Positions 44,434 to 57,279 of a stretch of 64,000 nt of DNA are shown here, one piece after another. How positions within the stretch are numbered: the first letter of the stretch is position 1; each line of letters begins with the position of its first letter. Origin of the DNA: Nostoc sp. JL33. GTDB lineage: Bacteria > Cyanobacteriota > Cyanobacteriia > Cyanobacteriales > Nostocaceae. Both the position numbers and the translations under genes were made by a program. Where the stretch lies: the NCBI RefSeq assembly GCF_017114985.1, contig NZ_JABXKP010000087.1:1-64000 (forward strand), written 5' to 3'. The notes beneath the pieces were generated by a model that saw nothing but the letters and a program-made list of their open reading frames with translations, was not told the DNA's origin and searched no databases.

Positions 44434-45039
44434 ATGATGAGCGATCGCGACTATACACTAATCATTGATAAAAGCGGTAGTATGTCCACACCCGACCAAG
44501 TGGGTGGTAGAAGTAGATGGGAGATCGCCCAAGAGTCTACTCTCGCCTTGGCAAGAAAGGCCGAACAGTTTGACCCCGATGGCATCACCGTTTACGTGTT
44601 TTCCGGTAGATTTAAACGCTACGATGATGTCACCTCAGCCAAAGTCGCCCAGATATTTCTCGAAAATGACCCTGCTGGGACAACAAACTTAGCAGGTGTA
44701 CTTCAGGATGCACTTAATAACTACTTTCAACGCAAAGCAGCCGGCAAAGCGAAGCCAAACGGAGAGACAATTTTAGTGATCACCGATGGTGAACCAGACG
44801 ATCGCAAGGCTGTGTTTGAAGTCATCATTCATGCGACTCGCCAAATGGAACGTGATGAAGAATTAGCAATTTCGATCATTCAAGTAGGTTCAGATGCTCA
44901 AGCAACTAAGTTCCTCAAAGCTTTGGATGACCAGTTGCAAAGTGTCGGTGCTAAATTTGATATTTGCGATACCGTCACTTTAGACGACTTAGAAGAAATG
45001 AGTCTTGTAGATGTATTGAGCAACGCAATAACTGATTAA
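44434..45039 (+). CDS. vWA domain protein (first of a tandem pair)
   Basis: A 201-residue single-domain von Willebrand A protein with a full MIDAS: DKSGSM, the Thr of AGTTNLAG, and the ITDGEPDD Asp. It has no signal or membrane segment, so it is cytoplasmic. It is about 75 percent identical by eye to the next protein, a recent tandem duplication. AGAGGA precedes ATG. In bacteria, small intracellular vWA proteins bind partner proteins through a metal-bridged acidic residue; the likely local partner is the coiled-coil protein at 45719. Confidence 0.88.
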   Translation: MMSDRDYTLIIDKSGSMSTPDQVGGRSRWEIAQESTLALARKAEQFDPDGITVYVFSGRFKRYDDVTSAKVAQIFLENDPAGTTNLAGVLQDALNNYFQRKAAGKAKPNGETILVITDGEPDDRKAVFEVIIHATRQMERDEELAISIIQVGSDAQATKFLKALDDQLQSVGAKFDICDTVTLDDLEEMSLVDVLSNAITD

Positions 45040-45086
45040 TGCGTTGATCGCCGCAGTCTAGTAAATATTAACTGGAGAATTGAAGA

Positions 45087-45692
45087 ATGCTAGAAAATCG
45101 TGACTATACCTTGATTATCGACAAAAGCGGCAGCATGGCCACCCAAGATCAAAAGGGTGGTAGAAGTAGATGGCTTGCAGCCCAGGAATCTACTTTAGCT
45201 TTAGCTAGTAAGTGTGAGCAATTTGACCCAGATGGCATCACTATTTATGTATTTTCTGGTAGATTTAAGCGATACGAAAATGTGACATCCAGCATAGTAC
45301 CGCAAATTTTTCGAGAAAATGACCCCTCTGGTACAACTGATTTGGCAGGTGTGTTAAAACACGCAACTGATGATTACTTACAACGCAAAGCAGCCGGTCA
45401 AACAAAGCCAAATGGTGAAACAATTTTAGTGGTTACTGATGGTGAACCGGACGATCGCAAAGCAGTAATGAAGGTGATTATTGAAGCTTCTCGGCGCATC
45501 GATCGAGACGAAGAACTAGCTATTTCCTTCATTCAAGTCGGCACAGATCCGCAAGCTACCCGCTTCCTCAAAGTCTTAGACGATGAACTTCAAGGTGCTG
45601 GTGCTAAGTTTGATATTTGTGACACAATTACTATGGAAGATATGGAAGATTTGAGTCTATCGGAAGTGTTGCTCAATGCCATTAATGACTAG
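45087..45692 (+). CDS. vWA domain protein (second of a tandem pair)
   Basis: A 201-residue paralogue of the upstream protein with the same length and MIDAS residues (DKSGSM, SGTTDLAG, VTDGEPDD). Differences cluster in surface positions (e.g. MATQDQKG for MSTPDQVG). GGAG lies upstream of ATG. The 47-nt spacing and the following gene 26 nt downstream indicate a three-gene operon. Confidence 0.88.
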   Translation: MLENRDYTLIIDKSGSMATQDQKGGRSRWLAAQESTLALASKCEQFDPDGITIYVFSGRFKRYENVTSSIVPQIFRENDPSGTTDLAGVLKHATDDYLQRKAAGQTKPNGETILVVTDGEPDDRKAVMKVIIEASRRIDRDEELAISFIQVGTDPQATRFLKVLDDELQGAGAKFDICDTITMEDMEDLSLSEVLLNAIND

Positions 45693-48361: not shown

Positions 48362-49243
48362 CTACTCCTCCCCCCAAGTTTGCAGTTGCAAATAAACTAG
48401 TACCAGCGTCACAGCTAGTAACACCGTCGCTGCTGCTGCTGCATAACCAAAATCAAACTGAGCAAAAGCCTCTTGGTAAATGTAGTAAACCAGCAAATTA
48501 GTCGAATTCAGTGGCCCACCTCCAGTCATCACATAAACTTGCTCAAAACTCCGCAATGTAAAAATCGCGGTAGTGATGATTGCAAATATCACAGTCGGGC
48601 GCAATCCAGGCAGAGTAATATACCAAAATTGTTGCCAAGCATTTGCTCCATCTAAATCTGCTGCTTCATAACGACTGGGAGGAATTGCTTGCAACCCGGC
48701 TAAAAAAACTACCATATTGAAACCTAATTGTTTCCAAATACTCATTAGAATAAGTACTGGCATTGCCCAAAATGTGTCTCCTAGCCAGGGTATGGTTGGA
48801 ATGCCAAAAAAATCTAAAAGTCCGTTAACTGGCCCTGATGTTTGAAACAGCCAGCGAAATCCCAAACCGGCTGCCACAAGTGAGATAATTGAAGGGATAA
48901 AATAGGCACTTCGCAGGGTTCCCCGCAAGGGAATGGAACGGTTTAATAACACTGCTAATCCCAAAGAGATAACTAAGCTGGGAATGATCGTGGCAACAGT
49001 AAAATAAAAGGTGTTACCCAAAACTTGCCAAAAATCGGGGTTGAGTAGCAAGCGCGTATAGTTTTTTAAGCCTATCCAATAAGTACCTTTTAAAGTGAAA
49101 CTACCAGCAGTGAAGCTGAGGTAAAACAAATAGGCGATCGGCCAAATGATAAAAACGCCCAGCAAAATTAGTGCTGGTGTGAGAAAAATCCAAGCAGCTA
49201 CTGTATCATTATCCAACCACGACTTAGTATATATTTTTGACAT
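48362..49243 (-). CDS. Carbohydrate ABC transporter permease (MalF/UgpA type)
   Basis: A 293-residue permease with six membrane segments and the EAA loop EAADLDGANAWQQFWYITLPGLRP. It would pair with a second permease, a binding protein and an ATPase, none of which is in the window, so the operon may be split or dispersed in the genome. The first 16 codons (MSKIYTKSWLDND) are duplicated at 53355-53401, upstream of the intact purN. Confidence 0.92.
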   Translation of the reverse strand: MSKIYTKSWLDNDTVAAWIFLTPALILLGVFIIWPIAYLFYLSFTAGSFTLKGTYWIGLKNYTRLLLNPDFWQVLGNTFYFTVATIIPSLVISLGLAVLLNRSIPLRGTLRSAYFIPSIISLVAAGLGFRWLFQTSGPVNGLLDFFGIPTIPWLGDTFWAMPVLILMSIWKQLGFNMVVFLAGLQAIPPSRYEAADLDGANAWQQFWYITLPGLRPTVIFAIITTAIFTLRSFEQVYVMTGGGPLNSTNLLVYYIYQEAFAQFDFGYAAAAATVLLAVTLVLVYLQLQTWGEE

Positions 49244-49264
49244 CTATAATCCCTCTTAGCTGTT

Positions 49265-49413
49265 ATGACCCTTCGCCCTGATTCTACCCTTAGCTTAGTT
49301 TCTCCTAGCATTAGCGATCGCCAACAAATCCGCCCAATCCAATATTGATGCAAGCCGCAGTATCAGTAATGCCGGATGATACACTAGAAACATTCCACGC
49401 GCGGATTTAAATT
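49265..49413 (+). pseudogene. Internally deleted copy of purN
   Basis: 49265-49325 matches the first ~61 nt of the intact purN at 53423 (ATGACCCTTCGCCCTGATTC) and 49339-49413 matches 53933-54007 (CCAATATTGATGCAAGCCGC). About 450 nt between these are missing, and the frame is lost. The upstream sequence 49197-49264 is also shared with 53355-53422, so the whole block is a degraded duplicate. Confidence 0.93.
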
Positions 49414-49486
49414 ATTACCCCCCTTAATCCCCCCTTATCAAGGGGGGAAACAAGAAAATACGGTTCCCTCCCCTTTATAAGGGGAG

Positions 49487-49600
49487 GAACGAAAAGACTT
49501 GTGTTGTGAACGAAAAGACTTGTGTTGTGAACGAAAAGACTTGTGTTGTGAACGAAAAGGCTTGTGTTGTGAACGAAAAGGCTTGTGTTGTGAACGAAAC
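49487..49600. repeat. 21-bp tandem array (GAACGAAAAG)
   Basis: Five full units of GAACGAAAAGACTTGTGTTG plus one base, plus a partial sixth; units 4 and 5 differ by one base (GGCTTG for GACTTG). A plus-strand frame of NEKTCVV repeats across it is an artefact. Confidence 0.93.
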
Positions 49601-49617
49601 GCTATTTTTCTGCAAAC

Positions 49618-50013
49618 TCAAACCAATCCCAAATGCAATTTCAACGCCGCATCAATTAGTACCATCATCTCTTCGTTTAAACTACCTAATACTTCAGCAG
49701 TAATTCGTTGCTTAGAAATTGTTCGCACTTGCTGCGCCTGTACTTTAGAAAGCTTCGTTAAACCACTAACCTCTGGATTAAGCAAAACTTCAAAGGGATA
49801 AACACGGCTCACATTAGAAGTAATCGGTAAAATTGTAATAGTGGTAGCAGCACTATTATTTATATCATTACTGACAATTAGCACTGGACGACGTTTACCC
49901 ATTTCTGAACCCATGACCGGACTAAGATTTGCGTAATAAATATCACCCTTACGGGTTCGGCAGTCGCTACAACGGGGGGAACCCCCGCAACGCGGTGCCT
50001 CACCACGTTTCAT
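49618..50013 (-). CDS. MazF/PemK-type endoribonuclease toxin with in-frame repeat insert
   Basis: A 131-residue toxin: RKGDIYYANLSPVMGSEMGK, RPVLIVSND, ATTITILPITSN and AQQVRTISKQRI are the normal MazF/PemK core (RNA cleavage). After MKRG, 19 residues (EAPRCGGSPRCSDC then RTRKG) interrupt the usual MKRGDIYYANL start. That insert is encoded by a GC-rich dispersed repeat, in frame, and brings three Cys. Start overlaps the antitoxin stop by 14 nt. Activity with the insert is unknown; it lies before the first core strand. Confidence 0.9.
   Translation of the reverse strand: MKRGEAPRCGGSPRCSDCRTRKGDIYYANLSPVMGSEMGKRRPVLIVSNDINNSAATTITILPITSNVSRVYPFEVLLNPEVSGLTKLSKVQAQQVRTISKQRITAEVLGSLNEEMMVLIDAALKLHLGLV
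49959..49999. repeat. GC-rich dispersed element inside mazF
   Basis: GGCAGTCGCTACAACGGGGG followed by GAACCCCCGCAACGCGGTGC; the first part is shared with the intergenic copy at 4931. The inserted length deduced from the protein is 57 nt. Confidence 0.85.
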
Positions 50014-50224
50014 CTGTTAAACCATCTGCCACTGTCACATCCCAATCGTTATCAACTTCAGCAGACGCTTCTCGGTAAGCTGCCTCTAATTCTCGGTTTC
50101 GCAGTAATTCTAATGCTTCTTCAATTACTTGAGAACGAGATTTACATCCTTTATCCGGCTTGTAATTTTCGACAAACTCCACTAAAGACGGTGGCAAGAA
50201 AATAAAGAGTTTTTCTACATTCAT
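50000..50224 (-). CDS. Ribbon-helix-helix antitoxin partner of MazF
   Basis: A 74-residue protein: MNVEKLFIFLPPSLVEFVEN and KSRSQVIEEALELLRNRE make a CopG/MazE-like ribbon-helix-helix; the acidic tail (AEVDNDWDVTVADGLTDETW) is the toxin-blocking part. It overlaps the toxin start. The ATG at 50224 fits the family; a TTG at 50245 is the alternative. Confidence 0.85.
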   Translation of the reverse strand: MNVEKLFIFLPPSLVEFVENYKPDKGCKSRSQVIEEALELLRNRELEAAYREASAEVDNDWDVTVADGLTDETW

Positions 50225-50508
50225 CTTCCTACCAACTAGTAGCAAAAATAATTCGTACTAATATTCTAGCTTACTAAAGCGATCGCACTTTCCCACAGGC
50301 GATCGCTTGGGTAAGCCCTTGGCTCATAATTATCTCTATATAGCAATACGGTTCAGTTAGCGATAATTGTAGGTTGGGTTGAGGAACGAAACCCAAACAA
50401 GCCTTGATGATGTTGGGTAACACTAAAGTTCAACCCAACCTACACAAATTCTTTCCCACTGCTGTAAGTCTATTTATAGCTGCCTACTCACTTTGATTTT
50501 TGTTAGCT
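50225..50508. other. Spacer between MazEF pair and orthocaspase gene
   Basis: 284 nt. Two HIP1-containing blocks (GCGATCGCACTTTCCCACAG and GGCGATCGCTTGG) start it, followed by the paired TTGTAGGTTGGGTTGAGGAA and TTCAACCCAACCTACAC, a loose palindrome seen also at about 26291 and 26350 near the Uma2 gene. Confidence 0.6.
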
Positions 50509-53121
50509 TTATCGATTTGTTGGTGGAGCAACAACAGCTTTCACAACTACAGCTTTGACACCTTTAATTTCCTTCGACAAACGTTCAATTTTAGCAAGTT
50601 GATCTTGATTGTTTACGGTTCCGCCTACAGTAACAGTCCCATCTTCTGCTGCATCAACTGTTATTAGACCATTAGGTATATTAGCTTCTAATTTGGAGCG
50701 AACTTCACTTGCTAGGTCTTTTAGGTCTCTCTGTGTATCACCACCAGTAGCATTATTACGTTGTTCGCGAGCGCGAATATCTTCATTGAGCTGTCTTCTA
50801 CGGGCTTCACTTTGTGCATCTTTTTGAGAAGCTTGTGTTGTTTGAACAGTAGGTGCTTGTGAAGAAATAAACTCTGGGCTAGACAAGGGAGTAGACTGTG
50901 GATTGTTACTACTAAAAATTGCACCCGCTAGCACTGCTATCACTAAGCCTGCTCCTCCTAGTCCTACCCATAAAAACTTTTGTCGGGTTATTCGCTCTTG
51001 AGCCGATTGAGTGGGTTGAGCAGAGCTTGACTGCTGAATCGGAGATTTAATTAATTCTTGGCGATATTCTGCTTCCTGTGGCTGGGGTTGTTTCTCTACC
51101 TGCTGCTTTAGTTGTACAACTTCTTGTTGTTTTTCTGCCTCTTTTTGCTGCCTGATGCTCTGTTGCTGTTTCCGGGATTCTACTTGTGAAGATGATTGAA
51201 TAATAATTGCTTCGATCGCAGATGTTTCTGCATCATTTAGTTCTAAAATTCGTTGAAAGCGCTGTAGTTCTTCACGAGTAACATCGCTAAGAGGATATTC
51301 AAACTGAATTGACTCTCTAAACACCTGTTCATACTGTTGCAGCTTTTGCTGATGTTCCTCGATCGCAGCAATAATTGGATTTTCAATTGCAGTCACATTC
51401 CGAGCAGTCAGATTCAACGCTTGATGACGTTGGGTTAATTGAGAGCGTTTAAAAGCACTGAGCGGATATTCTTGCTGAATAGCCTCTGTAAACTCCTGCT
51501 CATATTGCCTCAAGTTTGCTTGATGCGTTTCAATCTCCGCATTAATCCGCCTCTCGATCGCTCCCACATCCCCTTTACTCAACCCCAATGTCTGCCACGT
51601 TTGCTGCAACTGCTTCCGCGTCACCTCATCTGGATAATGCTGGCGCTGCGTCGCCTTCACAAACGCCTGTTCGTACTGCTGGAGTTTTTGATGATAGCTT
51701 TCAATCTGTGTTGTGATTTGCGCTTCAATTGGTGCAACATCTACATCCGTCAATCCCAAGCGCTGCTGCTGTTGGCGTAAGTCAGTCCGGGTTGCCGCAC
51801 TGAGAGGATATTCTCGCTTCGTGGCAGTCAAAAATAGCCGTTGGTAATCCTGGAGTTTCTGGTGATATGCCTCTACCTCAGCCGTAATCTGAGATTCAAT
51901 CGCGGCAATATCTCTATCCGCCAGTTCTAATTGCTGCTGGGTTTGCCGTAAGCGATCGCGGCTTGCTGCACTCAGGGGAAACTCCTGCCGCAGTGCCGTT
52001 GTAAAGGCTTGCTGATACGTTTCCAAGTTTTGCTGATGCGTCTTAAAGCGTGCAGTCACTAGTGCCTCAATCGGCATCGTGTCTTCATTTCGCAGCCCCA
52101 AAGTTTGCTGGAGAATTTGCAGATCGTGGCGATCGCTATCGGTAATTGTCTCGTCTCGCTCCAGTAGTTCAGTAAACACCTGCTGATACTGCTGGAGTTT
52201 TTCGCCAAACTCCTTGCGATACGGTTCCAACACCTCATCTTCGATCGCCTTCGCCTCATCTGTCTCCAATCCCAAGCGAGTCCTCTGATAATCCAATGTG
52301 CGACGACCAACAAGAGAAATTTCGCCTCGGTGAATAAATCGCGCTACCTCTTTACGATATCGCTGTCTTGGATCGCCCGGAGCCACCTTTGTCAGCCGAA
52401 TTTTAAAGCCTTCTCGAATTGCATAGATTTCCGGCTTCATCGCAGGTTGAAGTTCTCGCACCTTCTGACTGGCGTACTCATGGAGTTCATCAATTGAGAT
52501 AAACTCATCTTGATCGCGATCGGCTTCGCCCGACTTGATCCCTTCAACCAAAAAACGAGTGTAAATCGATAAATCTTGCCCTTGCTCCTCAAAGGAATAT
52601 TGAGTCGAAGTAGAAGAAGTCAACACGGCTCGTCCTTCACCACCTAACTGCTCCCGGATGTCAATCGTGCCGTCATCTTTGGCAGACATCCCCTCAGCAA
52701 ACGCGCCACTAAAGCAACTATCCAGTATTATCACCTGCCGCCGGGAGCGGCTTTCGCTCATGCGATCGTGAATAAAATTGGCAGACACCGACGTTGAGCG
52801 AATCAATTCGCCCTGCCGCGTCTTACTGGTGTTGCGAGTCGCCAGATACAGCCTACCGCGATCGTCTTTGATGCCGTGTCCCGAAAAGTATAGCAGCAGC
52901 AAATCATCCTTGTGCCGCCCAGAGAATAGCGTTTCGATCGCCATTTCTACAACTTGTCGTTCAGGATTTTTTAGCAGGGTAATATCTGACGCGGAAAACC
53001 CGCCCATCTCGCTATGCAGCAGTACACCATACACTGCTTCCACATCTCTAACTGCACTGGGCAATGGGTTCAGCCCTGGCTCATACTCACTGACCCCAAT
53101 CAGCAACGCTACCTTTGCCAT
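50509..53121 (-). CDS. Orthocaspase with EF-hand loop, helical repeats, membrane segment and BON domain
   Basis: An 870-residue caspase-family protein. The p20-like domain has catalytic H82 in YFSGHG and C136 in ILDSCFSG. A canonical EF-hand loop DRDQDEFISIDE lies at 201-212. From ~290 to ~645 six to seven helical repeats of about 60-70 residues follow, each with a QYEQAF-like start and a (EY)PLSA middle. A Gln-rich stretch, a membrane segment at ~715-738 (FLWVGLGGAGLVIAVLAGAIF) and a C-terminal BON domain (~795-865, GTVTVGGTVNNQDQLAKIER) complete it. The C-terminal part probably faces outward, leaving the protease in the cytoplasm. Cyanobacterial orthocaspases cleave after Arg and are linked to cell death and stress; this form is not characterised to my knowledge. 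Confidence 0.93.
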   Translation of the reverse strand: MAKVALLIGVSEYEPGLNPLPSAVRDVEAVYGVLLHSEMGGFSASDITLLKNPERQVVEMAIETLFSGRHKDDLLLLYFSGHGIKDDRGRLYLATRNTSKTRQGELIRSTSVSANFIHDRMSESRSRRQVIILDSCFSGAFAEGMSAKDDGTIDIREQLGGEGRAVLTSSTSTQYSFEEQGQDLSIYTRFLVEGIKSGEADRDQDEFISIDELHEYASQKVRELQPAMKPEIYAIREGFKIRLTKVAPGDPRQRYRKEVARFIHRGEISLVGRRTLDYQRTRLGLETDEAKAIEDEVLEPYRKEFGEKLQQYQQVFTELLERDETITDSDRHDLQILQQTLGLRNEDTMPIEALVTARFKTHQQNLETYQQAFTTALRQEFPLSAASRDRLRQTQQQLELADRDIAAIESQITAEVEAYHQKLQDYQRLFLTATKREYPLSAATRTDLRQQQQRLGLTDVDVAPIEAQITTQIESYHQKLQQYEQAFVKATQRQHYPDEVTRKQLQQTWQTLGLSKGDVGAIERRINAEIETHQANLRQYEQEFTEAIQQEYPLSAFKRSQLTQRHQALNLTARNVTAIENPIIAAIEEHQQKLQQYEQVFRESIQFEYPLSDVTREELQRFQRILELNDAETSAIEAIIIQSSSQVESRKQQQSIRQQKEAEKQQEVVQLKQQVEKQPQPQEAEYRQELIKSPIQQSSSAQPTQSAQERITRQKFLWVGLGGAGLVIAVLAGAIFSSNNPQSTPLSSPEFISSQAPTVQTTQASQKDAQSEARRRQLNEDIRAREQRNNATGGDTQRDLKDLASEVRSKLEANIPNGLITVDAAEDGTVTVGGTVNNQDQLAKIERLSKEIKGVKAVVVKAVVAPPTNR

Positions 53122-53422
53122 TTAACTCACCTATACCGCAATCAAATCTTCTGCTGCTTTAATCTCTGTGTTGTTCTCTTGATACCAAGTATTAGAATAT
53201 CACTTATATCAATTGGACGAGTTATGAGCTAAATCTTTACAGCAAAATTTAATCAAGCGTAGGCGTAGCCCGTCGTAGACATCGCAACATGAAAGTAGAC
53301 ATTGCCGAATCAAAGGATGAAATTTTACTTATTTATGTGATAAAAATCTAGGCGGCTACTGTACCATTATCCAACCACGACTTAGTATATATTTTTGACA
53401 TCTATAATCCTTCTTAGCTGTT
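53122..53422. other. Right junction of the accessory island
   Basis: 301 nt. The left half is AT-rich with CGTAGGCGTAGCCCGTCGTA (a short dispersed repeat also at about 60464). From 53355 it is the duplicate of the permease N-terminal codons (MSKIYTKSWLDN, now stopping after 17 codons) and the permease-purN intergenic sequence. Confidence 0.75.
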
Positions 53423-54082
53423 ATGACCCTCCGCCCTGATTCTACCCTTAGCTTAGTTTCTCCCAGCATTAGCGATCGCCAACTAGTCGCCCCTTTAAAA
53501 CTGGGAATTATGGCTTCTGGGAACGGCAGCAATTTTGATGTAGTTGCTCAAGCCATCCAAGATGGGCAGCTAAATGCTCAAATTAAAGTTTTAATTTACA
53601 ATAACCCCTCAGCTAAAGCAGCCGTCAGAGCAACCAATAGAGGCGTAGAAGCTGTTTTATTGAATCACCGCAACTATAAAAATCGAGAAGAGTTTGATCA
53701 GAAAATTGTGCAGACATTGCAGCACTATGATGTAGAATGGGTGATTTTGGCAGGTTGGATGCGACTATTAACATCAGTTTTCATCGATGCCTTTCCTGAG
53801 AGGATTATTAATATCCATCCTAGTTTGTTACCTAGTTTTAAAGGAATCCATGCTGTAGAACAAGCTTTGGCATCTGGGGTAAAAATCACTGGTTGTACAG
53901 CGCATATAGCTTGTTTAGAAATGGACAGTGGGCCAATATTGATGCAAGCCGCAGTACCAGTACTGCCGGATGATACAGCAGAAACACTCCACGCCAGGAT
54001 TCAAATTCAGGAACATCGGATTTTGCCACTTGCGATCGCTCTGGCAGCTTCTTCGTCAAAAGTTACACTAAGCGTAACGTAA
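53423..54082 (+). CDS. purN: Phosphoribosylglycinamide formyltransferase
   Basis: A 219-residue enzyme transferring formyl from 10-formyl-THF to GAR in purine synthesis. Motifs: LGIMASGNGSNFD (GAR/phosphate binding), INIHPSLLPSFKGIHA (catalytic Asn-His) and TGCTAHIACLEMDSGPILMQ (catalytic Asp region). The first ~25 residues (TLRPDSTLSLVSPSISDR) are an N-terminal extension common in cyanobacterial members. It is the intact copy of the gene broken at 49265. Confidence 0.96.
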   Translation: MTLRPDSTLSLVSPSISDRQLVAPLKLGIMASGNGSNFDVVAQAIQDGQLNAQIKVLIYNNPSAKAAVRATNRGVEAVLLNHRNYKNREEFDQKIVQTLQHYDVEWVILAGWMRLLTSVFIDAFPERIINIHPSLLPSFKGIHAVEQALASGVKITGCTAHIACLEMDSGPILMQAAVPVLPDDTAETLHARIQIQEHRILPLAIALAASSSKVTLSVT

Positions 54083-54702: not shown

Positions 54703-57279
54703 TTAATTAGAGTTAGCTTCAGTAGCTTGATACGCTTGTAAAAGCCTAGCATGATCGAGAGTAAATCCTACTTGCATCGCTATCTGGGCAAATAAATCAA
54801 TCTCAGGCTGTTGCCAATCGCGGGGGCCAGAACACTGATGTGCAATTAACAAACCAAATAGCTGGTCATCTTTGATAATCGGTGCTACTAAATTTGCTTT
54901 CACAGCAAAGGATTCGAGCAGTTTAATGTGACAATCAGCCAAACTTGACTCATAAATATTGTTGACTGCGACAACGCGACCAGACTGGTACTTTTCTACA
55001 TAGCCTTGAGTGAAACAGGGGTCTTCAATCTTAGACCGCAAAACTTTGGGATAACCTGAAACCACCGATTCGGCAATTATAATTCCCAACGAATTAGCAT
55101 AAAAGCTATAAACCAATACTCGGTCAGTACCCAGTGCTTTGCGAACCTCTTCCACAGTGGTTTTGATAACATCCTCTTCGTTAAGCGATTGGCGAATCTT
55201 GCGGATAATATCCACTAGTAACTGACTTCGCATACTTTCTGCTTCAATTCGTTGCAGCAGCCTAGCATGGTCGAGAGCAAATCCCACTTGTACGGCTATC
55301 TGGCCAAATAAATCAATCTCAGATTGTTGCCAATTACGGGGCTTGGAGCATTGATGTGCAATTAACAAGCCAAATAGCTGTTCATCTTTAATAATCGGGG
55401 CTACTAAATTTGCTTTCACAGCAAAGGATTCGAGCAGCTGAATGTGACAATCAGCCAAACCGACTTCATAAATGTTGTTTATAGCTAGAATGCGACCACG
55501 CTGATACTGTTCTACATAGCCTTGACCGAAACATGGGTCTTGGATTTCAGATTGCAAAACTTTTGGGTAGGTGAGAACAACTGATTCGGCAATCACAATT
55601 CCAGACCAATCAGCGTTAAAGCTATAAATCAGTACTCGGTCAGCACTCAGTACTTTACGAACCTCTTCTACAGTGGTTTTGAGGACATCCTCTTCATTGA
55701 GCGATTGGCGAATGCTGCCGATAGTATCCGCCAGCAACCGACTTTGCACACCTTCAGCATCGATTCGTTGCAGCAGCCTGGCATGGTCGAGAGCAAATCC
55801 CACTTGCATCGCTATCTGGGCAAATAAATCAATCTCAGGCTGTTGCCAATTACGGGGTCTGGAGCATTGATGTGCAATTAATAAGCCAAATAGCTGTTGA
55901 TCTTTGAGAATCGGAGCGACTAAATTTGCTTTCACAGCAAAGGATTCGAGCAAGCTAACGTGACAATCAAGCAAATCGGCTTCATAAATGTTGTTTGTAG
56001 CTTGAACGCGACCAGACTGATACTTTTCTACATAACCCTGAACAAAGCATGGGTCTTCGATTTCAGACCGCAAAACTTTGGGATAACCTGGAACCACTGA
56101 TTCGGCAATTATAATTCCAGACCAATTAGCGTTAAAGCTATAAACCAGAACTCGGTCAGTACTCAGTGCTTTCCGAACTTCTTCTACAGTCGTTTTGATC
56201 ACATCCTCTTCGTTGAGCGATTGGCGAATGCTGCGGGTAATTTCTATAAATACCTGAGCTTTATCTGCCTTCGTATCTACCTGTTCTAGAAGCTTGGCGT
56301 AGTCAAGGGCAAATCCTACTTGCATCGCTATCTGAGCGAACAAATCAATTTCAGACTGCTGCCAAAAACGAAGCCTAGAACACTGATGTGCAATCAATAA
56401 ACCGAATAGCTGTTTGCTTTTGAAAATTGGTGCTACTAAATTAGATTTGACACCAAATTGCTTCAGCAACTCAATATCACCATCACTGAGATCGGCTTGA
56501 TGGATATCATCAATAGCACGGATGCAATCATTCTGGTATTTTTCTATATACCCTGCCTCGAATCCAGGGTCAGAGACTGTAAACCCTAAAATCTTTGGTA
56601 AACCAGGTGCTACTGATTCCGCGATAAAGGTTCCATTAGAGTTGGAGCTAAAACAAAAGATGCTTACGCGATCAATGCTTAGAGCTTTACGAATTTCTTC
56701 TGAGGTAGTTTTGAGAACATCTTCTTTATTGAATGATTCTCGAACCCATCGGGTAATTTTTATTAATACTTGAGAGTAATCAGCTTCCGCTTCTTTCTCC
56801 TGTATCAAAACTGAAAGTAGCTCAGTGAATAAGTTGATGTTTCTCTCTAACATCACTAATTCATCTTCGCTAGAGATGAAAATTTGAGTATAATCACTGT
56901 CTGGACGTAGCTTATTTTTTATAACATTAGAAATTGCCGCAGCGTTGCTGACTCGATTAATAGCTCGATTTGTCACAGAAACAGCGATCGCACCTGCCAA
57001 AATTGCTGTTACCCCCATACCAGTTAACAAGAGTGACAGTTCTTCCTCTAGAGCTTCAGTTTTTGTTGAACGTTTCGGACTCTCTTCTCTGACTCGCGGA
57101 ATTTGTTTGGTAATTAAATTAATGCCGTAGTAGTAAGTAGCTGTTCCAATTGCAACCACAGGAAGGACACTGATGCTTAGTGCCCAAACTATTGCTTTAG
57201 TCTTTAAACTCCATTTTTGTTGCCACAGCCTTTGTTGACGATTCTGTCTTGCTTGGTTTTGAGAAAAAGACTGACTCAT
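54703..57279 (-). CDS. Membrane protein with four GAF domains, three cyanobacteriochrome-like (DXCF), no output domain
   Basis: An 858-residue protein. Two membrane segments (~30-52 and ~82-104) with an intervening short loop are followed by a HAMP-like region and then four GAF domains at ~170-330, 350-505, 525-680 and 700-850. GAF2-4 each have the DXCF motif as DPCF (Cys 411, 583, 755) and the canonical Cys-His (DCH; Cys 439, 611, 783), so each can in principle bind a bilin through two Cys. GAF1 has DPGF and DGDI, so it lost both. The protein ends right after GAF4 (LLQAYQATEANSN). The N-terminus (QQRLWQQKWSLKTKAIVWAL) is like PixJ-type phototaxis receptors, but the methyl-accepting domain is absent. 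Confidence 0.92.
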   Translation of the reverse strand: MSQSFSQNQARQNRQQRLWQQKWSLKTKAIVWALSISVLPVVAIGTATYYYGINLITKQIPRVREESPKRSTKTEALEEELSLLLTGMGVTAILAGAIAVSVTNRAINRVSNAAAISNVIKNKLRPDSDYTQIFISSEDELVMLERNINLFTELLSVLIQEKEAEADYSQVLIKITRWVRESFNKEDVLKTTSEEIRKALSIDRVSIFCFSSNSNGTFIAESVAPGLPKILGFTVSDPGFEAGYIEKYQNDCIRAIDDIHQADLSDGDIELLKQFGVKSNLVAPIFKSKQLFGLLIAHQCSRLRFWQQSEIDLFAQIAMQVGFALDYAKLLEQVDTKADKAQVFIEITRSIRQSLNEEDVIKTTVEEVRKALSTDRVLVYSFNANWSGIIIAESVVPGYPKVLRSEIEDPCFVQGYVEKYQSGRVQATNNIYEADLLDCHVSLLESFAVKANLVAPILKDQQLFGLLIAHQCSRPRNWQQPEIDLFAQIAMQVGFALDHARLLQRIDAEGVQSRLLADTIGSIRQSLNEEDVLKTTVEEVRKVLSADRVLIYSFNADWSGIVIAESVVLTYPKVLQSEIQDPCFGQGYVEQYQRGRILAINNIYEVGLADCHIQLLESFAVKANLVAPIIKDEQLFGLLIAHQCSKPRNWQQSEIDLFGQIAVQVGFALDHARLLQRIEAESMRSQLLVDIIRKIRQSLNEEDVIKTTVEEVRKALGTDRVLVYSFYANSLGIIIAESVVSGYPKVLRSKIEDPCFTQGYVEKYQSGRVVAVNNIYESSLADCHIKLLESFAVKANLVAPIIKDDQLFGLLIAHQCSGPRDWQQPEIDLFAQIAMQVGFTLDHARLLQAYQATEANSN

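Follow-up and report, generated by a model that had tools for sequence, protein, structure and literature searches.

The window analysed here is a stretch of 64,000 nt from Nostoc sp. JL33 (contig NZ_JABXKP010000087.1; the genome, G000, is 7.1 Mb). Within it, two unequal copies of a host gene pair, an ABC-type permease gene and purN, enclose a small accessory island. The features of the locus are as follows (coordinates in the window, strand where applicable):

48362-49243, minus strand: intact ABC-type permease of the left copy, 293 aa (BPD_transp_1, Pfam)
49178-49338, plus strand: left repeat copy, comprising permease codons 22 to 1, a 21-nt gap and about the first 25 purN codons (158 nt, 92% identical to 53336-53493)
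49339-49413, plus strand: left purN relic, codons ~170-193, preceded by a deletion of ~436 nt (89% identical to 53933-54007)
49414-49490: dispersed repeat that terminates the left purN relic, with ~20 more places in the genome
49487-49599: 21-bp tandem array, found by repeat comparison
49618-50013, minus strand: mazF (PemK/MazF toxin), 131 aa (PF02452, E 3e-29)
50000-50245, minus strand: mazE-like antitoxin, 81 aa, assigned from its position beside mazF
50509-53121, minus strand: orthocaspase, 870 aa, with a C14 caspase domain, repeats and a BON tail (PF00656, E 7e-19)
53131-53169, minus strand: relic of an upstream gene, its last ~12 codons, read by eye; the gene is complete (125 aa) in locus L082
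53336-53493, plus strand: right repeat copy, with a 22-codon permease stub, the gap and the purN start (repeat match)
53423-54082, plus strand: intact purN (formyl transferase) of the right copy, full length at 219 aa (ORF, Pfam)

Two blocks of direct repeats relate the copies: 49178-49335 matches 53336-53493 over 158 nt without gaps (92%), and 49339-49413 matches 53933-54007 over 75 nt (89%). When 49178-49500 was compared with the whole genome, the two repeat partners (E 1.7e-61 and 1.8e-21) ranked second and third, behind only the query, showing that the repeats did not arise by chance. An earlier reading made from the sequence alone (hereafter, the sequence-only reading) had reported a 129-nt repeat with four mismatches and no indels, extended by the second block. 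Both were recovered, the former lying inside the ungapped block of 158 nt, which is the actual extent of the repeat. The same reading correctly placed an intact permease and a gapped purN on the left, a permease stub and an intact purN on the right, and MazEF, the 21-bp array and the orthocaspase between them. The stub likewise required correction, its homology running to permease codon 22 (edge at 49178/53336) and not to 17 codons; the left purN lacks ~436 nt. An assembly artefact is an unlikely source of the duplicated structure, because the identical structure was found in other assemblies, including G007 (1 contig) and G059 (6 contigs). The permease itself had best matches with 90-98% amino acid identity in 33 of 34 same-genus relatives, the exception being G014, which lacked a close one.

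Within the island, a gene with a MazF/PemK domain adjoins a small antitoxin gene, as in type II MazEF systems; the 81-aa mazE-like protein had no Pfam match at 0.001. The orthocaspase contains SGHG at position 80 and DSCFSG at position 134, the His-Cys dyad motifs of the C14 caspase domain. PADLOC called it only as 'caspase' and called nothing for mazF or mazE. We also observed an in-frame insert of 57 nt in mazF (~49948-50004; 131 aa vs 112 aa in the relatives compared), part of which matches two places in the locus of G022. From these matches it looks like a dispersed element.

Occupied, empty and mirror-image loci

We searched 53 congeneric genomes and classified them by locus structure. 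The island or its remnants occurred in 28, of which 26 had both left and right copies and the other two were G024 and G014. Permease and purN were adjacent without an island in 19 genomes, four were otherwise rearranged (G005, G008 and G026, whose genes are separated by >1 kb of unrelated sequence, and G067, with a decayed permease), and two gave no match (G063 and G060, the latter 72% complete). In addition, 80 named loci were considered, 32 of which belong to genomes already classified. The 48 further loci included 22 tight pairs (gap ≤30 nt) without an island, 21 with larger gaps and no island matches, four with no purN in range, and a single one with the island (L179). Thus, the uninterrupted pair that the sequence-only reading had proposed to look for in relatives does exist, both within the genus and among the further loci, and the tight pairs in 22 of the 48 further loci suggest that the empty state is probably ancestral. 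Two marks of a Campbell-type insertion, direct duplication of the target (26 strains with left and right copies) and an uninterrupted target in relatives, are present.

The two copies were 557 to 6446 nt apart (median 3754; 22 strains measured). They lay on different contigs in two of the 26 two-copy strains, G018 and G061, the latter a 10.8-Mb assembly with 4% contamination whose two contigs may not belong together. In two other strains the copies are far apart on one contig (~0.9 Mb in G068, L088/L089; >1 Mb in G020, L052/L099), and the locus there is split by chromosomal rearrangement.

The island edge at permease codon 22 is one and the same junction in the 20 strains whose edges could be displayed. 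It is preceded by TTA in 18 of these, and by CTGG in the seven left or empty copies shown. Over the 10 nt outside the edge, right copies agreed with one another at 7.9/10 and with the seven left or empty copies at 2.9/10. The longest exact block common to the left and right copies had a median of 30 nt (15-77, 26 strains). In several strains we judge this to be little homology for RecA to recombine efficiently.

Decay of the two copies is complementary. On the left, 25 of the 26 strains have an open permease of 293-294 aa (275 aa, beside assembly N, in G003); on the right, all but one have an open purN of 211-223 aa (203 aa and frameshifted in G020). One redundant gene has decayed on each side. 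The left purN relics, found by tblastn, cover the first 18 to 41 codons, with codons 170-193 also retained in the window and only codons 178-205 in G004. From these differences in extent, the left copy must originally have stretched to codon 205 or beyond, and its decay took more than one course. No island gene was found to the right of the right purN in any of the 26 strains (tblastn, E 1e-4) within the 86-8820 bases present there, <150 bases in G009 and G065. This result bears on the sequence-only reading, which had offered Campbell-type integration or tandem duplication followed by decay: the duplication does bracket extra DNA with one spare gene decayed on each side, while a tandem duplication carrying the cargo with it is disfavoured, since it predicts such genes on the right.

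Several minor features of the copies were seen as well. Seven left purN relics could be aligned up to the octamer GCGATCGC (column 144) and six up to column 141; examples of relic ends are L047 3024, L049 10298, L051 9908 and L086 8620. The octamer is HIP1, and in G017, G023, G030 and G066 other island sequence starts within the same 8 nt. The positions of these ends suggest left purN deletions at HIP1 sites, and an indel near columns 141-144 may set some of them. In six strains the right repeat copy carries an insertion of ~225-275 nt made of short imperfect ACAATGCCAATGCATCGG-like repeats (L039 7124-7392, L047, L053, L084, L085 and L090).

Two members of the genus set, G024 and G014, and one locus outside it, L179, had other gene orders. 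G024 is the earliest ingroup branch on an rpoB-rpoC tree (support 0.988; 9384 columns, 51 genomes, rooted on the deep clade). Its permease and purN are both open, with the caspase immediately 3' of them; to the left of mazEF are two permease relics in the same orientation, a 3' end and an internal piece, each short (~50 nt; best E 7e-15 and 6e-16). G024 thus shows mirror-image decay, in which the permease was lost on the left and both genes remained open on the right. Locus L179, from Aff. Roholtiella sp. LEGE 12411, has the order mazEF-caspase-permease-purN. Its permease and purN are both open, and immediately 3' of them are placed mazEF, relics of toxin-antitoxin genes and a caspase of the BON type. 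The nucleotide identity of L179 to the window is 95% for mazF, 98% for mazE and 92% for the caspase vs 87% for the permease and 85% for purN. The left side of L179 is cut by a contig end, beyond which a left copy may lie. The deep-clade genome G014 has mazEF and the caspase bordered by purN on one side and by the native left flank on the other, the latter being 93-94% identical to that of its sister G067 as far as the permease end; neither a permease nor a left relic was found at this locus. Judged by gene order, L179 and G014 have arrangements that a donor could have, and if an L179-like donor underwent one crossover with an empty recipient, the structure of the window would result. The spacers between caspase and permease differ among L179/G014, G024 and the common type. 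In 14 comparisons of seven spacers, those of L179 or G014 with the common type mostly fell within shuffles, and only G014-G000 had 0/300 shuffles.

Cargo of the island

Linkage between the orthocaspase and mazEF is loose, as several strains have one without the other. Across the islands (14 scanned, Pfam on selected proteins), five toxin-antitoxin-like pairs were found: MazEF; a PIN protein with a small partner that has no Pfam match; DUF3368/UPF0175, both below Pfam cut-offs; BrnT/BrnA; and a Gp49-like protein with an HTH_37 partner. No integrase was found when the ORFs of 75 aa or more were examined in 14 of the 28 islands (similarity to known island proteins, inspection by eye and Pfam on a selection); one transposase-like ORF was present in the G076 island.

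The orthocaspase occurs with two forms of tail, BON or FGE-sulfatase, on a conserved front part (example loci: the window, L179, L079 and L061). The FGE-sulfatase tail was found in 11 strains, by Pfam in G059 and G024 and by similarity in nine more, and the caspases of G007 and G028 matched none of the FGE queries. The BON tail is at 50509-51000 in the window; L179 (1407-4146) aligns over it, and its last codons are also present in G034. Cyanobacterial orthocaspases with FGE-sulfatase tails are known, 39 being given in Table 1 of PMC8283722.

The closest caspase found outside the site is on contig C703 of G061 (L082), with 86% amino acid identity over 540 residues. L082 encodes a MobA/VirD2-like relaxase, a MobC/NikA-like protein, a ParA-like ATPase and a tyrosine recombinase, as in a plasmid-like contig, and has two neighbouring orthocaspases, one of them the 86% relative. 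This caspase is preceded by a complete 125-aa gene without a Pfam match, and the homology to the island runs ~43 nt past the caspase start. Read by eye, the same upstream-gene relic stands before the caspase in several islands, including those of G024 and G014. In the plasmid collection, only caspases with <60% identity were found, none covering 80% of the query, and there was no island-bearing plasmid. Beyond the genus, no island-type mazE above 76% was found in 243 genomes (the two matches above this level were the window's own genome and G066), L179 being the one known exception.

Two-gene EACC1-caspase conflict systems have been described (PMC7159879, PMC8195603). The likeness is that a small gene precedes the L082 caspase and encodes a hydrophobic segment rich in glycine (by eye), and that caspase tails vary (FGE-sulfatase, BON); the 125-aa gene is a candidate for the EACC1 component (PMC7159879). 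In contrast to the systems as presented there, the small gene in the window is cut to ~12 codons (by eye), and no intact upstream gene precedes the caspase.

Age, horizontal exchange and selection

The mean distance between left and right copies within strains was 0.094 (25 of the 26 strains usable), equal to that between left copies of different strains (0.094) and close to that between right copies (0.090). The duplication is therefore about as old as the genus, and a recent, strain-specific duplication, local to this genome, can be ruled out. The sequence-only reading would have been contradicted by purN copies more distant from each other than from those of other strains. In G000 the two copies are indeed not mutually closest, the right ranking 8th of 70 for the left and the left 3rd of 70 for the right; we read this as excluding recent duplication only. 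We also considered whether the copies within a strain had been strongly homogenised and rejected this, as only a weak signal appeared (190 of 5000 permutations at or below the observed value).

The distribution of the island was compared with three trees. On the rpo tree with 47 classified tips, occupancy required 11 changes (shuffled mean 15.1; as few in 40/2000). With the 43 ingroup tips, occupancy clustered on the purN tree (9 changes, 31/2000), weakly on the rpo tree (10 changes, 99/2000), and not on the permease tree (12 changes, 652/2000). On the rpo tree these tips imply 10 losses if the island is basal, or 15 gains if it was never lost. Six empty strains that occupy four places on the rpo tree form one group on the purN tree, so the ten losses may partly represent import of empty alleles. 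A search for left/right diagnostic bases that would mark empty sites as excision products yielded only two weak columns.

Caspase identities followed those of purN (Mantel 0.60, 0/2000; partial given rpo 0.60, 0/2000), and not those of rpo (0.21, p 0.13) or the left permease (0.23, p 0.10), all in 17 strains. Since the caspase tracks the adjacent purN and not the species (rpo) tree, and since empty strains group on the purN tree, we read occupied and empty alleles as both having been exchanged horizontally. Between G014 and the window, identity was 91.6% for the caspase and 85.3% for purN. In the seven strains of the dN/dS set that carry mazEF, dS was 0.12 for both mazF and mazE, 0.33 for the caspase, 0.41 for the permease (6 strains) and 0.52 for purN. 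The spread of mazEF is thus more recent than the divergence of the flanks (0.12 vs 0.41-0.52). The orthocaspase is under purifying selection, with a dN/dS of 0.12 (14 sequences, first 506 codons), similar values being obtained for purN (0.11, 14 sequences) and the permease (0.08, 13 sequences); mazF and mazE gave 0.25 and 0.18, respectively (7 sequences each).

Proposed history and related systems

On balance, we favour a history in which a recombinase-free accessory island used the host pair permease-purN as homology arms, entered by an ancient additive single-crossover integration and was followed by reciprocal decay. First, island DNA with orthocaspase and toxin-antitoxin genes would have become seated beside permease-purN in a donor lineage, a step suggested by such an order in L179 and by the position beside purN in G014. 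Donor DNA of the form island-permease-purN would then have joined an empty recipient by one homologous crossover within the pair, giving permease-purN, island, permease-purN, a structure that is itself seen. The redundant genes would next have decayed, usually the right permease and the left purN, with the mirror image shown by G024. Finally, recombination between the repeats, or DNA from another strain, may eliminate or exchange the island, with both genes intact afterwards, as the empty sites and the signs of horizontal exchange would suggest.

Addition of linear donor DNA is rather unlikely in our estimation. In this case, purN or permease would pair on one side with illegitimate joining on the other, or transformation would stimulate an unequal crossover, and the same product as that of a single crossover would be obtained with no circle needed. 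No circle was seen, nor any integrase in the 14 islands scanned, in agreement with this possibility, as is the precedent of transformation-made merodiploids bordered by repeats in pneumococcus (PMC3784515). The observations suit the linear and the circular route alike, although the orthocaspase relative on a plasmid-like contig leans slightly toward a circle. We consider it improbable that the permease-purN pair was first duplicated in tandem and that toxin-antitoxin and caspase genes were inserted separately later between the copies. Cargo does vary greatly among strains, which shows that genes enter and leave between the copies, but no strain was noticed with directly adjoining copies. The closest pair, G023, is 557 nt apart and retains 57 nt matching the island of the window, and L179 and G014 carry the island with no second copy seen. 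Direct repeats at a fixed site would be accounted for by an island or ICE-type element that used an integrase and had its attachment sites where the permease begins, but this is very improbable considering that the ORFs of 14 islands include no integrase and that the repeats are host coding sequence, once extending at least from the permease start to purN codon 205, and not short att sites. Many independent insertions into a hotspot would fit the patchy distribution and the 15 gains needed if the island was never lost, but scarcely the identical codon 22 junction in 20 strains and the shared upstream-gene relic before the caspase, and deserve almost no credence.

The integration history that we favour may be extended, tentatively, to a mobile recombinase-free island for which the host pair serves as the attachment site. 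Because one intact gene lies on each side, host recombination could allow clean exit, and re-entry in any strain with the pair, and the island might have spread in this way across species and at least two genera, with the toxin-antitoxin array and the partnerless orthocaspase penalising its loss. We speculate that the toxin-antitoxin genes plausibly impose such a penalty and, by analogy with MaOC1 of Microcystis, that the orthocaspase may act on antitoxins by cleaving them.

The structure resembles Campbell-type insertions and merodiploids in that the target pair is directly duplicated around added DNA and that one crossover rebuilds one intact copy of each gene. Unlike these, the island is ancient, reciprocally decayed and found in natural strains, and its donor-like state would be represented by other lineages. 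The closest precedent that we found for a repeat-bordered island without a recombinase is the microcin H47 island of E. coli, reported in PMC5426353 as small, devoid of a recombinase, bordered by two imperfect direct repeats (148 and 144 bp) and excised as detected by PCR. Compared with that account, the repeats in Nostoc are the ends of two host genes, the cargo is toxin-antitoxin and orthocaspase genes, and the island is known from sequence data. As reported in PMC7935541, MaOC1 adjoins a ParE/ParD-like pair, two identical 152-bp repeats flank that pair only, and MaOC1 provides the precedent for an orthocaspase that cleaves antitoxins. Both loci combine direct repeats with an orthocaspase that neighbours type II toxin-antitoxin genes; in Nostoc, however, host genes form the repeats, which enclose the entire island, and the toxin families differ. 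No description of the island was found among the papers listed by our literature searches, mostly of openly available work, as judged from titles and abstract openings.

The natural series of empty, donor-like, duplicated, mirror-image and decayed loci offers a view of how a small integrase-free island enters, persists and leaves via host recombination. In addition, many Nostoc genomes have an orthocaspase together with toxin-antitoxin genes at this single fixed site, which makes testable both the proposed link between orthocaspases and antitoxin cleavage and the retention of the island by addiction.

Other internal similarities were noted elsewhere in the window. An 858-aa protein with repeated GAF domains is encoded at 54703-57279, where four 300-nt blocks occur at a spacing of 516 nt, the other three being 68-84% identical to the first. 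Two adjoining, similar genes for 201-aa vWA (TerF-like) proteins are located at 44434-45692.
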